Below the pieces are notes generated by a model. It searched no databases. It was given only the letters and a program-made list of their open reading frames with translations, and was not told the DNA's origin. Source: Acidobacteriaceae bacterium (lineage in GTDB: Bacteria > Acidobacteriota > Terriglobia > Terriglobales > Acidobacteriaceae). Taken from it: a stretch of 64,000 bases of DNA. The stretch is from assembly GCA_035944135.1 (NCBI GenBank), contig DASZBM010000002.1, positions 930,001 to 994,000 on the forward strand, written 5' to 3'. A program made the translations under genes and the position numbers. Shown in pieces: positions 31,305 to 38,674 of the stretch. The stretch's first letter is position 1, and every line of letters begins with the position of its first letter.

Positions 31305-31727
31305 ATGATCAGTAACTGGACGAAGCGCAAGAAAATCATCGTTGGATTTCTAGCCGTTACCACCATTCCGATGGCGGTCATCTTGCCCAGACTCCTTCTC
31401 GAGCTCCATAGCGCGAATAGCGCATTTCGTAACTTTAGCGGCGCACTAATCGCGAAAAACTATGGTGAGGCATACGCCCTGACTTCACCGGAGCTTCGAT
31501 CCACCACAGACTACAAATCATTCGTGGAGATACATCATGGCTTGAACTCACGGCTAGGAGATCTGACTGAAATTGCGATCGACCGGTCCGAGGTCAAAGA
31601 TAAAGGGGATGGATGGTACGCGATTTTAGACGCTCAAATGATCTTCGCTCGTGGGCGCCTCCCGTTTACCTTCATCCTTAAGAAAGAACACCGCGAGTGG
31701 AAGGTTTACAGCTACCACGAACAGTAA
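31305..31727 (+). CDS. Membrane-anchored protein of unknown function inserted between modA and modB
   Basis: A 140-residue protein with an N-terminal membrane helix (KIIVGFLAVTTIPMAVILPRLLL, about 10-32) and a soluble domain of the cystatin-like / DUF4864 style: NFSGALIAKNYGEAYALTSPELRSTTDYKSFVEIH, then LTEIAIDRSE and ILDAQMIFARGRLPFTFILKKEHREWKVYSYHE. This resembles small secreted folds of the NTF2-like superfamily. Its DNA is visibly more AT-rich and uses more A/T-ending codons than the flanking mod genes, which hints at later acquisition. Function unknown. Confidence 0.7.
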   Translation: MISNWTKRKKIIVGFLAVTTIPMAVILPRLLLELHSANSAFRNFSGALIAKNYGEAYALTSPELRSTTDYKSFVEIHHGLNSRLGDLTEIAIDRSEVKDKGDGWYAILDAQMIFARGRLPFTFILKKEHREWKVYSYHEQ

Positions 31728-33332: not shown

Positions 33333-34028
33333 ATGCTCGATGTTCACGCGCCCCACGACTCCGCCCACACCTGGACTGACTTCTTCATCCACATAGCCAC
33401 CATCGTGGTCGGCCTGATCATCGCCATCGGTCTCGAGCAGACAGTCGAGATGATCCACCGTCATCGTAAGAGCGTTGCAGCTCAGCAGTCCCTCCACGAT
33501 CAGAGCATCGCAAATCGCGCGCTGACGCAGCATGACCTGAACGTCATTGCGGAATGCCGAAGCCTTATTCGCAAGAACATGGACGCTCTCGACACCGCTC
33601 GAGGCCAATCGACCCTCTCAGTCGCATCCTTTACACCGTTCCTCGCCTCAACTTACACACCGTCGCCCGAAAATAACGCGTGGCTTGCTCTACGCGACAC
33701 GGGCGGACTGGAGTTGCTACCGCCGAAGCTCGCCCAAGCTTACGGCAAGGTCGATTACATGCGCTCCATCGCGGCATCCTCCAATGAGCTCATCATCACG
33801 CGGAGACAGGATGTCCAGGCTATTCTCCATCTCCACAACAGCCCCGCACAGCTCACCTCTGAAGAGCGCGAGCAACTCCTCATCGCCTTCAGCAAACTCG
33901 ACCAGGCAATGGTGGAGATGCGCAATGCCCTCCTGATATTCAGCGGAGGCAATGAGCTGGCTCTCGCCGGAGCTGAAATTTCGCCCGCATCTGAAGCCCC
34001 CATCTTCCGGCAACTGCCGCAGCAGTAA
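33333..34028 (+). CDS. Array paralogue 1: membrane-anchored protein of unknown function
   Basis: 231 residues, first of seven tandem paralogues. The N-terminal module (1-47) contains MLDVHAPH, HTWTDFFIH and the membrane helix IATIVVGLIIAIGLEQTVE, followed by an Arg/His-rich flank (IHRHRKS). The start ATG 33333 is fixed by the module, which opens all seven proteins at the same position. The soluble part is helical, with the shared motif NNAWLALRDTGGLELLPPKL (about 113-132) and a C-terminal helix after LTSEEREQLL. No catalytic motif is seen. The topology is uncertain: the basic residues flank the C-terminal side of the helix. It is 123 bp after modC. Confidence 0.75.
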   Translation: MLDVHAPHDSAHTWTDFFIHIATIVVGLIIAIGLEQTVEMIHRHRKSVAAQQSLHDQSIANRALTQHDLNVIAECRSLIRKNMDALDTARGQSTLSVASFTPFLASTYTPSPENNAWLALRDTGGLELLPPKLAQAYGKVDYMRSIAASSNELIITRRQDVQAILHLHNSPAQLTSEEREQLLIAFSKLDQAMVEMRNALLIFSGGNELALAGAEISPASEAPIFRQLPQQ

Positions 34029-34044
34029 TCCGTCAGGAACACCC

Positions 34045-34833
34045 ATGATTGATATCCACACGCCCGACCAACGCACCCACACCTGGACCGACTTCTTCAT
34101 CCACATCGCCACCATCGCCGTTGGTCTTCTTCTCGCCATCGGTCTCGAACAAGGCGTCGAGTACATCCATCACCGCCGCCAGGTCTCCGAAACCCGCCAA
34201 GCTCTCCGCATCGAGCGCGAGACCAATCGCCAGGCCTATGCGCAGGTCGTCAAGGAATTCCGTCGTCAGAACGCGGCTCTGCTCAACAACCTTCTTGTCC
34301 TGCACCTTCTCCAGCAGCATCCTGGAGCCCCGGCGGAGCAGCTTCCCGGAATCCTCGTCTGGCACGCGATCAGGGTTACCTTCGCAGAATCCGCATGGAA
34401 GACCGCCGAGCAGAGCAGCGTCACCGCGCTCATGCCGCAGGACGAGGTTCGCCGCTACGCCTTACTCTACGAGCGAATCGAGAACGCGAACCGGAACTTC
34501 GATGCTGTATGGCCGGCCATCATCAGGGCCCGGCTTTACGGCCTGGAGGACCCCGATCCGTCCCATCTCAGCCCGGCTCAAATCGCCCAGGAGCTCGACG
34601 ACACACGGGCTGCGCTCGTTCAGCTCTACACCCAGGCCGCCGCCCTCGTGCAGCTCGTCACCGCCGAGAACGACTTCGGGCCGGGCCTCACGAAGGAAGA
34701 GCTCAACTCCGATATGCGCGTAACCGAGATCGAACAGGATCCACGTTTCGCCGCCGCCATCGCCCGCACGAACAGCCGTCTGCCGGCAGACAATCGCATT
34801 CCCATTCCTCAGTCCGCCTCCGGCTCAAAGTAA
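34045..34833 (+). CDS. Array paralogue 2: membrane-anchored protein of unknown function
   Basis: 262 residues, starting 17 bp after the stop of paralogue 1. The module reads MIDIHTPDQRTHTWTDFFIH, then a helix IATIAVGLLLAIGLEQGVE and IHHRRQV; with paralogues 1 and 7 it belongs to the HTWTDFFIHI subgroup. The soluble helical region shows ESAWKTAEQSSVTALMPQDE, equivalent to the W-x2-A-x3-S-x3-L-x-P motif of the others, and a second shared block LSPAQIAQELDD. It is the longest member, with extra residues in the C-terminal third. Function unknown. Confidence 0.75.
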   Translation: MIDIHTPDQRTHTWTDFFIHIATIAVGLLLAIGLEQGVEYIHHRRQVSETRQALRIERETNRQAYAQVVKEFRRQNAALLNNLLVLHLLQQHPGAPAEQLPGILVWHAIRVTFAESAWKTAEQSSVTALMPQDEVRRYALLYERIENANRNFDAVWPAIIRARLYGLEDPDPSHLSPAQIAQELDDTRAALVQLYTQAAALVQLVTAENDFGPGLTKEELNSDMRVTEIEQDPRFAAAIARTNSRLPADNRIPIPQSASGSK

Positions 34834-34865
34834 AGACCTCCAGCCACTCACGGAGTCACACCCGC

Positions 34866-35627
34866 ATGATCGACGTCCACGCCCCACACGAACGCACTAA
34901 CACCTGGCGCGACATCTTCGTCCATCTCGCCATCGTCATCGTTGGCATCCTCATCGCCATCGGTCTTGAGCAGACGATCGAATTCATTCACCGCAGCCAC
35001 CAGCGCCACCAACTCGAAGCCGACCTTCACACGGAAGCCGAGAATAACCGCGCTATCATCGCGCGCGATCTCCGCCTGCAGGATCTCGAGCCCTGGTTCG
35101 AGCAGGTCATCAACGCAGTCGACTCCGCGATGCCGCAGCAGGGAAAAATTCACATCACTCTTCCCCTCGCACCCTGCATCCCCGGCTCCGTCGGTACATC
35201 CACCGAGCGCTATTTCGCTCCGTCGGAAGCCGTCTGGACAACCGCCAAGGAGAGCAGTCTCGTTGATCTCCTTCCCGTCGAGCAGGCCCGCATGTTCACC
35301 CGACTTTCGCACAATTACGATCTCCTCGGCGACAGCCGCAACGAGTTCTATCACCACTGCAGCACTATCGGCGCCATGCAGCACCGCTTCGCTCGGCTCT
35401 CCCCAGCTCCCCCAGCCACCGCCGTCTGGACGCTCTCGCCCGACCAGGCCGAGCGTCTGGCACAGGTCGCCTCCGATGCTCGCACTGCCATCAAGGGTCT
35501 CTGCTTCCGGCTTCGCTGGTCCGATGTTTACGAGCAAGGCATCCTCTCCGGCGAAACCCGCGCCGACCAGCGAATGATGTCCATGAACCAGGAACGCTTC
35601 GAGGATAATCAGGACGCCATCCAGTAG
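34866..35627 (+). CDS. Array paralogue 3: membrane-anchored protein of unknown function
   Basis: 253 residues. The module is MIDVHAPHERTNTWRDIFVH with helix LAIVIVGILIAIGLEQTIE and IHRSHQR; it groups with paralogue 6 by the TWRD and HLAIVIVGI signature. Soluble part: SEAVWTTAKESSLVDLLPVEQ is the shared motif, and LSPDQAERLAQVASDARTAI the second shared block. It has two Cys (APCIPG and HHCSTIG, with another in GLCFRLRW). A frame running in from upstream overlaps paralogue 2, but the module fixes the start at ATG 34866, 33 bp after that gene. Confidence 0.75.
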   Translation: MIDVHAPHERTNTWRDIFVHLAIVIVGILIAIGLEQTIEFIHRSHQRHQLEADLHTEAENNRAIIARDLRLQDLEPWFEQVINAVDSAMPQQGKIHITLPLAPCIPGSVGTSTERYFAPSEAVWTTAKESSLVDLLPVEQARMFTRLSHNYDLLGDSRNEFYHHCSTIGAMQHRFARLSPAPPATAVWTLSPDQAERLAQVASDARTAIKGLCFRLRWSDVYEQGILSGETRADQRMMSMNQERFEDNQDAIQ

Positions 35628-35656
35628 CCGCTCACAGCCACACGCAACGAGGACCG

Positions 35657-36376
35657 ATGATCGACATCCATCCGCCCCAACACGCGCCCATGACACGCCG
35701 CGACTTCTTCGTCCATCTCCTCATCGTCGTCCTCGGCATCCTCATCGCCATCGGTCTCGAGCAGGCCGCCGAAGTCATCCACCATCACCACCAGCGTCGG
35801 CAATTGGAAGAGGACCTCCGCACGGAGGCGCAGCGCAACGTCGGCACAATCGACGCTAACGAGAAAAACTTTGCAGTCTACATGGCCTGGTATCGCGACG
35901 TTCTGAAGGCCGGGAGAGAGGCGAAACCTATGGGTGAATTCGTTAGCTTTGTCATTCCGCCTAGAGTCGACCCCAGGGTCGCCCAGCGACCGATGGACAA
36001 CGTTTGGCCTGCCGCAACGGCTTCAGGCGCCGTGGCTGTGCTGCCCCGTGAGGAAGTCGAGACCTTCGGAAGAATCAACACCTATGCCGAATTTGCCGAT
36101 CAAATCGCGGGAGCTCGTCAGGCAGCACTCCTCACCGAGAACGCAGTCCTCAGCCGTCTTGGTCTCAGCCTCGCTCCAGGTACAACCTTGCGAATGACCG
36201 CGCAGGACCGGGATGAACTGATGCGCGCCGTCGCAACTCACCTTGAAGGCTATCGCGAGCTAGCCGTCGCAGATGCCACGTGGCAAGGCTGTTCCGAGGC
36301 AGTCCTTCACGGCGTCAACTCTATCGATGGTTTTTACCCCTACATCGCGCGGGCCCAGGCCAGCCAACCAAAATGA
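35657..36376 (+). CDS. Array paralogue 4: membrane-anchored protein of unknown function
   Basis: 239 residues, 29 bp after paralogue 3. The module is MIDIHPPQHAPMTRRDFFVH with helix LLIVVLGILIAIGLEQAAE and a VIHHHHQRRQ His run; it pairs with paralogue 5 (T-R-R in place of T-W). Shared motif: DNVWPAATASGAVAVLPREE. The C-terminal block LRMTAQDRDELMRAVATHLE aligns with the equivalent region of paralogue 5 over its whole length, so the two are recent duplicates relative to the rest. Function unknown. Confidence 0.75.
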   Translation: MIDIHPPQHAPMTRRDFFVHLLIVVLGILIAIGLEQAAEVIHHHHQRRQLEEDLRTEAQRNVGTIDANEKNFAVYMAWYRDVLKAGREAKPMGEFVSFVIPPRVDPRVAQRPMDNVWPAATASGAVAVLPREEVETFGRINTYAEFADQIAGARQAALLTENAVLSRLGLSLAPGTTLRMTAQDRDELMRAVATHLEGYRELAVADATWQGCSEAVLHGVNSIDGFYPYIARAQASQPK

Positions 36377-36440
36377 CCGCTCATCATCCGCCCGTCCCCG
36401 TCTCATCAGCTCCCACACGCCGCCTTGGAGTTCTCCAGCA

Positions 36441-37163
36441 ATGATCGACATCCACCCACCGCATCACGCCGCCATCACAAGACGCGAGTTCTTCATTCAC
36501 CTCTTCATCGTCATCCTCGGCATCCTCATCGCCATCGGCCTGGAGCAGGCCGTCGAGGTCTTCCATCACCATCAAGAGCGCCAGGCCCTGATCGATGACT
36601 TCCATCGCGAGTGTGCCGACAACCTCAAAGTCTTCGATTTCGATCTCGACGTCATTCACCACGAGTTTGCCTGGGAGCACGCCTCGCTCGCAGCGCTGCG
36701 CAATGCCCAGCCGCACGGCGGATACGTCACCGTCACCATGCCTCAACCACCTGCGCAGAACAATCTCCAGTCGCCATCCCGCTCCGTCTGGTCCGTCGCA
36801 AAGACCAGCGGCAAGGTCGACCTCCTGCCGGAAAACCTCGCCGAAATCTTCGATCGCGTCGATACCGAGGGCGCGCATTGGAACGATGTGGTCCAGCCCG
36901 CCACCACCGCTTTCCAGCGCTTGAAGAGCTTCGGCGATCGCACCGGTTCCCCCCTCAACACCGGAGCGACCATTCACCTCACCCTCGCCCAGCGAGACGA
37001 CGCCGAATCCATCTTCGACGATCACCTCGTGCAGTTCGAACAGGAGAGGATCTGGATCGCCTGGTGGAAGGGCGCTTCCATTAGTGTCCTTCGCGGCGTC
37101 CAGTCCCGCGCTGACATGGCAGAAGACATCAAGCGCGCCAACATCGCTTCCCGTCAACAGTAA
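36441..37163 (+). CDS. Array paralogue 5: membrane-anchored protein of unknown function
   Basis: 240 residues, 64 bp after paralogue 4, the widest gap in the array. The module is MIDIHPPHHAAITRREFFIH, helix LFIVILGILIAIGLEQAVE and VFHHHQERQ. Shared motif: RSVWSVAKTSGKVDLLPENL. The C-terminal helix region IHLTLAQRDDAESIFDDHL matches paralogue 4. A frame extending upstream of ATG 36441 into paralogue 4 is rejected because the module defines the start. Function unknown. Confidence 0.75.
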   Translation: MIDIHPPHHAAITRREFFIHLFIVILGILIAIGLEQAVEVFHHHQERQALIDDFHRECADNLKVFDFDLDVIHHEFAWEHASLAALRNAQPHGGYVTVTMPQPPAQNNLQSPSRSVWSVAKTSGKVDLLPENLAEIFDRVDTEGAHWNDVVQPATTAFQRLKSFGDRTGSPLNTGATIHLTLAQRDDAESIFDDHLVQFEQERIWIAWWKGASISVLRGVQSRADMAEDIKRANIASRQQ

Positions 37164-37187
37164 CGTTCCAGTCATTCGGAGAGCTGC

Positions 37188-37970
37188 ATGATCGACATCC
37201 ATGCCCCGCACGAATCCGTCCACACCTGGCGCGACATCCTCATCCACCTCGCAATCGTCATCGTCGGCATCTTCGTCGCTATCGGCCTCGAGCAAACCGT
37301 CGAATACTTCCACCACCTCCACCAGCGCCACCAGCTCGAGGACAATTTGCGCGACGAGCTCCGCGTCGACCTCCGTCACGACGCCAATGACTTCCGGATT
37401 CTCGCCGACATTCGCGCCTATACCGTCGAGCTGAAGTCCGCCGTTACCGCTCGGCGCACTGGCAAATCTTCACCCCAGCCGCCCGCAGCAAATGATCCCC
37501 GCCGCCACCGGATTCCACTCGCTCCCTCCATTGCCATCTGGGATGCCGCTAAGCTCGACGCCACCATCACCCTCCTTCCCTCACGGGACATCAACATCTT
37601 CAACGGCGTCGTTCTCCAGCACGACCTCACCTTCGCGGCGCTCGACGACTTCCAGCACGCTGCCTTCGCGCTCGAAAGCTTCGAAGAGCGCTTCATCGAC
37701 GCTCCCGGCGCCTTCGACATGGGCTACCCCGCACCTCCGCCCAACCTTGACGCCATGTCTCCCGCCGACCTCACGCAGTACGAGACCCTCCTCGCCGCCT
37801 ACATCAAGGCCGTAGACCGCATCAACGTGCGCGTGCACTTCTTCGATAGCGTTATCCGCGCCGTCTTGGACGGTGCCACTGACCGCGACGACCTGACTCG
37901 CCGCGCCTTCCCCGACGGCAAGCCGCCGTCCCTCGACATCCCGCCAACTACAGAGAGCGCCCAACCATGA
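37188..37970 (+). CDS. Array paralogue 6: membrane-anchored protein of unknown function
   Basis: 260 residues, 24 bp after paralogue 5. The module is MIDIHAPHESVHTWRDILIH, helix LAIVIVGIFVAIGLEQTVE and YFHHLHQRHQ. The shared motif is weaker here: IAIWDAAKLDATITLLPSRD. The second block is MSPADLTQYETLLAAYIKAV. The C-terminus is Pro-rich (GKPPSLDIPPTTESAQP). Its stop overlaps the start of paralogue 7 by 4 bases (ATGA), so translation of those two is coupled. Function unknown. Confidence 0.75.
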   Translation: MIDIHAPHESVHTWRDILIHLAIVIVGIFVAIGLEQTVEYFHHLHQRHQLEDNLRDELRVDLRHDANDFRILADIRAYTVELKSAVTARRTGKSSPQPPAANDPRRHRIPLAPSIAIWDAAKLDATITLLPSRDINIFNGVVLQHDLTFAALDDFQHAAFALESFEERFIDAPGAFDMGYPAPPPNLDAMSPADLTQYETLLAAYIKAVDRINVRVHFFDSVIRAVLDGATDRDDLTRRAFPDGKPPSLDIPPTTESAQP

Positions 37971-38674
37971 TCGACGTCCACGTCCCGCACAAATCCGAAC
38001 ACACCTGGACCGACTTCTTCATCCACATCGGCACCATCGCTGTGGGCATTCTCCTCGCAATCGGGCTGGAGCAGGCCGTTGAACTCATCCACGAGCGCCA
38101 TCAGGTTCACGAGCTGCGCGAGGGAGCCATCGCCGACGCCCGCATCTACCTCCACGACGTGGACCAGAATCTTGCTGCCGACACTCGGCAGGTCGAAGAT
38201 CTCACCCGACGGATCCAGGAGGTTCGGTCCGCACTCGACGAGCATCAGCCGTTGCCGCCACCCGCCTATCGTCCGGCGCTCACCATCAGCACCATTCGGC
38301 TCGGCAATCTCGCGGCTGCCAAAGCAAGCGGTCTCTTCCATCTGCTCTCGCAGGATGAGATCAACAGTGCTGGAGACGCCGAAGTCGGTGTGGTCAAGGC
38401 CGAAGCACTCAAGGAGCGTGCCTTGGAAGCTGCCACAAGGCGCATAGCCTTCGAGCAGCGCTTCCAGTCCAACTTTCCCTCCGGTCCGTCCGATTTCTCG
38501 CACATTACGCCGTCACAGCTCGACGAATATCTCGGCCTCCTGCTCGACGAACGTGTCCGGCGCACTGAGACGATCACTTACCTCGAGCTGATGCACCGCG
38601 GCACGCTGGCGTACCTGAACGGCCAACGCAGCCTCGAAAAACTCCGCGAAGCTCAAGAGCCAACTTCGCACTGA
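37967..38674 (+). CDS. Array paralogue 7: membrane-anchored protein of unknown function
   Basis: 235 residues, last of the array. The module is MIDVHVPHKSEHTWTDFFIH, helix IGTIAVGILLAIGLEQAVE and LIHERHQVHE, closest to paralogues 1 and 2. The shared motif is modified: LGNLAAAKASGLFHLLSQDE, with the Trp lost. The second block is ITPSQLDEYLGLLLDE. The region between, ALEAATRRIAFEQRF, is clearly coiled-coil-like. After its stop come 88 bp and the convergent queE gene, so the array ends here. Function unknown. Confidence 0.75.
   Translation: MIDVHVPHKSEHTWTDFFIHIGTIAVGILLAIGLEQAVELIHERHQVHELREGAIADARIYLHDVDQNLAADTRQVEDLTRRIQEVRSALDEHQPLPPPAYRPALTISTIRLGNLAAAKASGLFHLLSQDEINSAGDAEVGVVKAEALKERALEAATRRIAFEQRFQSNFPSGPSDFSHITPSQLDEYLGLLLDERVRRTETITYLELMHRGTLAYLNGQRSLEKLREAQEPTSH

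Follow-up and report, generated by a model that had tools for sequence, protein, structure and literature searches.

Seven tandem paralogues

The window, by which we mean the whole 64,000-nucleotide stretch of soil-acidobacterium DNA analysed here, carries seven tandem open reading frames on the + strand between positions 33333 and 38674, here named g1 to g7. They encode proteins of 231 aa (g1, 33333..34028), 262 aa with a C-terminal extension (g2, 34045..34833), 253 aa (g3, 34866..35627), 239 aa (g4, 35657..36376), 240 aa (g5, 36441..37163), 260 aa (g6, 37188..37970) and 235 aa (g7, 37967..38674). Successive genes are separated by 16, 32, 29, 64 and 24 bp, and g6 and g7 overlap by 4 bases. 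A sequence-only reading had described seven tandem genes for proteins of 231-262 aa, with 15 invariant positions and a gapless first 47 residues, and we reproduced these values and every gene start exactly. Base composition is of the coding type, with GC of 0.67-0.80 at third vs. 0.39-0.44 at second codon positions, and the overall GC of the genes (0.58-0.63) equals that of the window (0.61). Searches with g3 as query recovered the other six proteins at E = 4e-31 to 2e-16, so their kinship is not due to chance. A simple scan found no sigma-70 promoter upstream of g1, and no structural RNA was found in the array region. Two further family copies lie about 4 kb apart on opposite strands of contig C10 (L090:7031-7645, −; L090:11370-11978, +), which brings the genome to nine family genes. 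The C10 copies are near a Macro-domain gene and, as judged by eye, esterase-like and amidohydrolase-like genes.

All 15 invariant positions of the seven-protein alignment fall within residues 1-42. In g1, the conserved tail and transmembrane (TM) module spans residues 1-47, of which residues 14-42 (33372..33458, +), covering the predicted TM helix and the start of helix 1, hold H20, G27, A31, L34, E35, V38, E39 and H42. Across 67 family sequences, G27, A31 and E35 were invariant (67/67), while H5, P7, H20, I30, L34, E39, H42, E57, W124 and A127 were kept in at least 90%. A further motif, AAWxTAxxSGxLxLMPxxExxxYxxxY, lies in mid-protein. Overall pairwise identity among g1-g7 is just 24-37% and the alignment is weak past residue ~60; the claim that the seven are homologous over their whole length nevertheless holds, because they have a fold and the W/A/SG motif in common.

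The window proteins gave only chance-level matches to Pfam, NCBIfam, PHROG, PADLOC and PDB sequences, as did the 67 family members to Pfam, NCBIfam and PDB, in line with the view that no characterised family is represented. No known immunity family matched the window proteins above cut-off, PADLOC likewise yielding none, and a literature search returned no relevant published description of such arrays in Acidobacteria. Outlying members, which come from acidobacterial families beyond this one, from Pseudomonadota and from two viral contigs, retain the TM segment, an E(x)3N pair and the W motif, and their profile matched that of the core family at E = 1.8e-39. g1-g7 belong to an undescribed, widespread, multicopy protein family. 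Nothing that we found places them in a well-characterised single-copy family or indicates that they go untranslated, the two outcomes that the sequence-only reading had named as counting against it.

Predicted anatomy and membrane anchor

AlphaFold models were obtained for g3 (33-row alignment; pLDDT 88.6, pTM 0.80) and g7 (41-row alignment; pLDDT 88.4, pTM 0.78), and both show one architecture with the same order of helices. A 13-residue coil tail leads into a helix of ~75 residues that includes the TM segment and runs from residue 14 to residue 88-92. A short helical motif around the region of the conserved W follows, then two helices that are each 36-38 residues long, and the chain closes at the C-terminus with a helix of 20 residues in g3 and 7 in g7. 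Neither model had a match at E ≤ 0.001 in the PDB with Foldseek, nor did the g3 model in BFVD, and function from fold likeness in these two databases was accordingly rejected. Each of the 94 members examined had one TM segment, with a second hydrophobic segment in none. Sequence and model together show g1-g7 as single-pass membrane proteins, predicted to consist of a conserved tail of ~14 residues, a TM segment running into a long helix, and an exposed helical bundle.

Conservation along residues 17-45 was periodic, peaking at 98 degrees per residue (0/5000 permutations as high), and the signal was also present in residues 20-40 (p = 0.0002; helical period range 98-100 degrees). The residues H20, G27, A31, L34 and V38 lie on one helix face, whose edge is formed by E35 and H42, and we take this conserved face of the anchor helix to be a putative packing interface within the membrane. 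The alignment, this face and the two models bear out the description of the proteins as membrane-anchored paralogues with a fixed membrane module and divergent soluble domains. Mean K+R was 1.3 in the tail vs. 1.6 in the 15 residues past the TM segment, and the net charge of the tail was slightly less negative. These charge statistics lean weakly towards an N-in/C-out topology, which would place the helical bundle in the periplasm.

Probable relation to DUF6090

DUF6090 (PF19578) is an uncharacterised family that, like ours, appears to have an N-terminal TM segment of 'VVxGILIAL' type followed by a long helix, and a conserved (A/T)(W/Y)xxAxxSGxLxLhxxxE motif at matching spacing. For comparison we used a DUF6090-like sequence written for the purpose, the sole check of which was its match to PF19578 (E = 1.3e-13). 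Aligned to it with hhalign, the outlying members scored a probability of 91.8 (E 7.5e-7) and the core family 79 (E 1.5e-5), in register over the TM segment and the W/SG motif. The real score exceeded all 60 shuffles in which the TM segment was kept (maxima 36.9 and 27.5 vs. observed 46.6 and 38.0), whereas with the TM segment removed it fell within the shuffled range. The shuffle controls and the in-register profile match make distant homology to DUF6090 likely rather than proven, and on sequence comparison our family is probably a distant relative. The two also differ, in that our family has a D/H/P-rich tail where the comparison sequence has a basic one, has GLEQxVExxHH where that sequence has ALQINNWNE, and scores below the Pfam cut-off.

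A stronger version would make these proteins orthodox DUF6090 members missed by a Pfam model that is too narrow. The in-register hhalign matches of both profiles, with a full score above every TM-kept shuffle, speak for it; the loss of the signal with the TM segment, a comparison sequence checked by its Pfam match alone, and the PF19578 scores speak against it. No family member was seen to reach the gathering cut-off of 23.5 bits: PF19578 was absent at E ≤ 10 from scans of the window proteins and nine outlying members, absent among the 25 families listed for 67 members, and never over cut-off in 11 or 297 genomes, although control genomes also gave none over cut-off. We regard orthodox membership as quite possible, while placing it short of even odds. 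A literature search found no mention of DUF6090, which is not a known immunity family.

Origin of the array

The head-to-tail order, the short gaps and the great similarity of the first 47 residues are what recent local tandem amplification of a single gene would leave, and the sequence-only reading had called the family seven-fold locally amplified. The identities of 24-37%, high synonymous divergence and a tree of 99 family proteins contradict this. Window labels changed 6 times over the tree vs. a shuffled mean of 5.7, with at least 5 changes forced by starred branches, and 0% of 200 bootstrap trees united g1-g7. At the depth sampled, the seven are no closer to each other than to outsiders; local amplification is refuted there, and we consider it very improbable as the origin of the array.

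The seven instead scatter over the family, several pairing with genes of other genomes, g2, g5 and g7 having their nearest relatives there. g1 groups with L041_202 (98/80), apart from its array neighbours, and the sister of g2, at 61% identity, is L050, which comes from the metagenome-assembled genome of a gammaproteobacterium; L011_2274 is also close to g2 (62%). g4 groups with g5 and L010_1501 (97/87), g4 and g5 being the only two of the seven that are near each other, while a single array in G001 (the contig of Granulicella sp. L46) contains the two genes that pair with g5 and with g7. g5 and its G001 C11 counterpart (L010_1501/L051) share 88% identity (dN 0.06, dS 0.29), g7 and L010_2248 share 74% (dN 0.17, dS 1.17), and g2 and g3 share 61-62% with their relatives (dN 0.29-0.30, dS 0.95-1.71), while no close relative of g6 was found, the best having 39% identity. 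Because dN is well below dS for g2, g3, g5 and g7, at least these are constrained as proteins, with relatives elsewhere under purifying selection as estimated from the sequences. In G001, a close relative of g3 (61% identity; L025, G001:C15:157679-158401) is broken by two stops and represents a decaying copy.

Their spread over the whole family tree indicates that the array is a collection of old subtypes, and g1-g7 appear to be old versions brought together rather than copied on site. We also considered gene conversion homogenising the 5' module. In a first count, codon identity at shared residues of same-array pairs was 0.64 in this module vs. 0.50 expected, but most of the excess disappeared when codons were shuffled within the module (0.648 vs. 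0.622 pooled; 0.63 vs. 0.63 in the window). The signal is thus largely module-specific codon usage, and gene conversion is unsupported. Recombination of the gene-conversion kind has reportedly been seen in esaG strings.

Distribution and genomic context

The family was present in 15 of 41 close relatives (E ≤ 0.01) and in 24 of 297 genomes across the phylum, 17 of the 24, the array's own genome included, belonging to the same family-level group. Copy number varied from 0 to 16 within the genus, and the family is multicopy over this range in Acidobacteriaceae and Rhodanobacteraceae. Within Pseudomonadota it occurs in Rhodanobacter and in several other genomes, and among 276 sampled genomes of the class to which Rhodanobacter belongs it was found in Rhodanobacter itself only. 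Further arrays occur at L040, L042, L045, L052 and L094. There was no match in the phages searched, one weak match in the plasmids and two distant matches in viral contigs; a phage or plasmid origin was rejected on this near absence.

The idea that mobile or conjugative elements carry the family as cargo draws on different observations. Mobilisation genes lie about 0.8 kb beyond the end of a four-gene array in G006 (L094:10602-14627), a TraD-like fragment follows the G001 C11 array (by eye), and members occur in Pseudomonadota. Against this, we saw no integrase, relaxase or transposase around the window array (by eye), g1-g7 do not depart from the GC of the window, and the family is almost absent from plasmids and phages, all of which makes the cargo explanation improbable. 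The genes beside the L094 array are NikA-like and TrwC relaxase genes, a possible tie of some arrays to mobilisable elements.

The window array is flanked on one side by an ABC-transport cluster (SBP_bac_11, BPD_transp_1, ABC_tran) and on the other by a cluster with Radical_SAM and PTPS, which we read as molybdate-type transport and a queuosine-type pathway. We fetched 24 modC loci from further genomes of the genus and three queE loci from other genomes; none of them had a family gene within 1.5 kb, and a functional tie to the molybdate or queuosine genes was rejected on these counts. Within the molybdate-type cluster, the solute-binding and permease genes are separated by a small membrane-anchored gene resembling DUF3887 (31305-31727; below the Pfam cut-off). 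The window array is without a conserved partner gene at its site, and we recognised no gene for a toxin, an effector or secretion beside it or the other arrays. The sequence-only reading had put the family forward as the best candidate for an undescribed system; a stand-alone system is not supported, the array being one instance of a widespread multicopy family, probable kin of DUF6090. The earlier observation was correct and precise, and its amplification claim was wrong.

A recurrent location was found elsewhere. About a dozen other Acidobacteriaceae genomes have between one and four family genes immediately upstream of serA, in most cases bordered on their far side by a GSP_synth gene (L047:4746-8369; also L016-L019, L021, L039, L042, L043, L048, L060 and L092), and in the tree these serA-linked members look like stable orthologues across Acidobacteriaceae genera. 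In the array's genome, the GSP_synth gene and serA adjoin, 130 bp apart with nothing between them (G000 C4:159935-162929). Filled in relatives and empty here, this is a recurrent family site that can be vacant, the family residing elsewhere in this strain. Genes of the beta-lactamase family (PF00144) stand amid the serA-site family genes in two genera (L043:4024-5202 and L048:4472-5743; Pfam match run on the L043 copy).

Possible functions

Our results support a docking surface within the membrane that all members share, together with exposed domains that have diversified. In our preferred explanation, the conserved tail and TM face of every member would bind the same partner, either each other in hetero-oligomers or one conserved membrane protein, and the divergent, putatively periplasmic bundles would serve as interchangeable binding modules for variable ligands. 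Arrays would be built by collecting existing subtypes rather than by recent duplication. The anatomical and evolutionary parts of this explanation are very probable, while as a whole, with the family as inner-membrane docking proteins that display variable binding bundles, we give it a probability of roughly 0.3.

The array is perhaps like orphan immunity, the nearest working analogue being orphan immunity strings such as those of TsaI. TsaI (DUF443) of Staphylococcus aureus has five predicted TM segments and is encoded downstream of a toxin gene (PMC9484751). The sole conserved block of TsaI strings is N-terminal and membrane-spanning, and its authors suggest that this block binds a receptor and the rest the toxin (PMC9484751). 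In both systems, membrane paralogues that differ from one another stand in tandem and combine a conserved N-terminal membrane block with a variable remainder, a likeness that is anatomical alone; our proteins have one predicted TM segment rather than five, and the array has no recognised toxin gene where TsaI lies by its own. In Bacteroidales, rAID and orphan immunity arrays consist of divergent immunity genes without an adjacent cognate effector (PMC12247911); rAID is recombinase-associated, and its factors include SUKH-domain proteins. The window array resembles these in being a divergent gene array with no cognate effector beside it, and differs in that neither a recombinase nor a SUKH domain was found there. 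Of the traits expected of orphan immunity, the array shows the string of differing paralogues that share a conserved N-terminal membrane block, while a nearby toxin, effector or recombinase gene or a known immunity domain was not found at the array.

The lack of a recognised toxin, effector or secretion gene by any array counts against the preferred explanation, as do the serA-linked members that look like stable orthologues, which suggests a housekeeping role for at least those. These apparent orthologues make a structural or sensory role in the envelope about as likely. The members would then form periplasmic homo- or hetero-oligomeric bundles that stabilise the envelope or sense stress, with copy variation as tolerated redundancy. 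Conservation of the orthologues between the GSP_synth gene and serA in several Acidobacteriaceae genera, purifying selection, a single TM segment joined to long helices, and likely distant kinship with a family not known for immunity are consistent with such a role. Sporadic presence argues against it, since genes with a core role in the envelope should be kept more steadily than in 15/41 close relatives and 24/297 genomes across the phylum, as does the empty serA site in the array's genome, and we hold the envelope role as possible but well below even odds.

Within the docking explanation, a binding or immunity role of the family is a minority bet. We think it unlikely, if worth stating, that a reassorting repertoire of old, horizontally collected periplasmic bundles, on a fixed tail and TM face that would dock every paralogue to one shared partner or to its fellows, endows each array with its own set of specificities and forms a modular recognition or immunity layer in soil Acidobacteriota and Rhodanobacteraceae. 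The family is missing from the curated libraries searched, yet many cultured soil Acidobacteriota have it, with up to 16 genes in one genome. That its TM face and tail are invariant points to a single conserved partner, which could be sought directly, and a function found for the family would probably bear on DUF6090 too.
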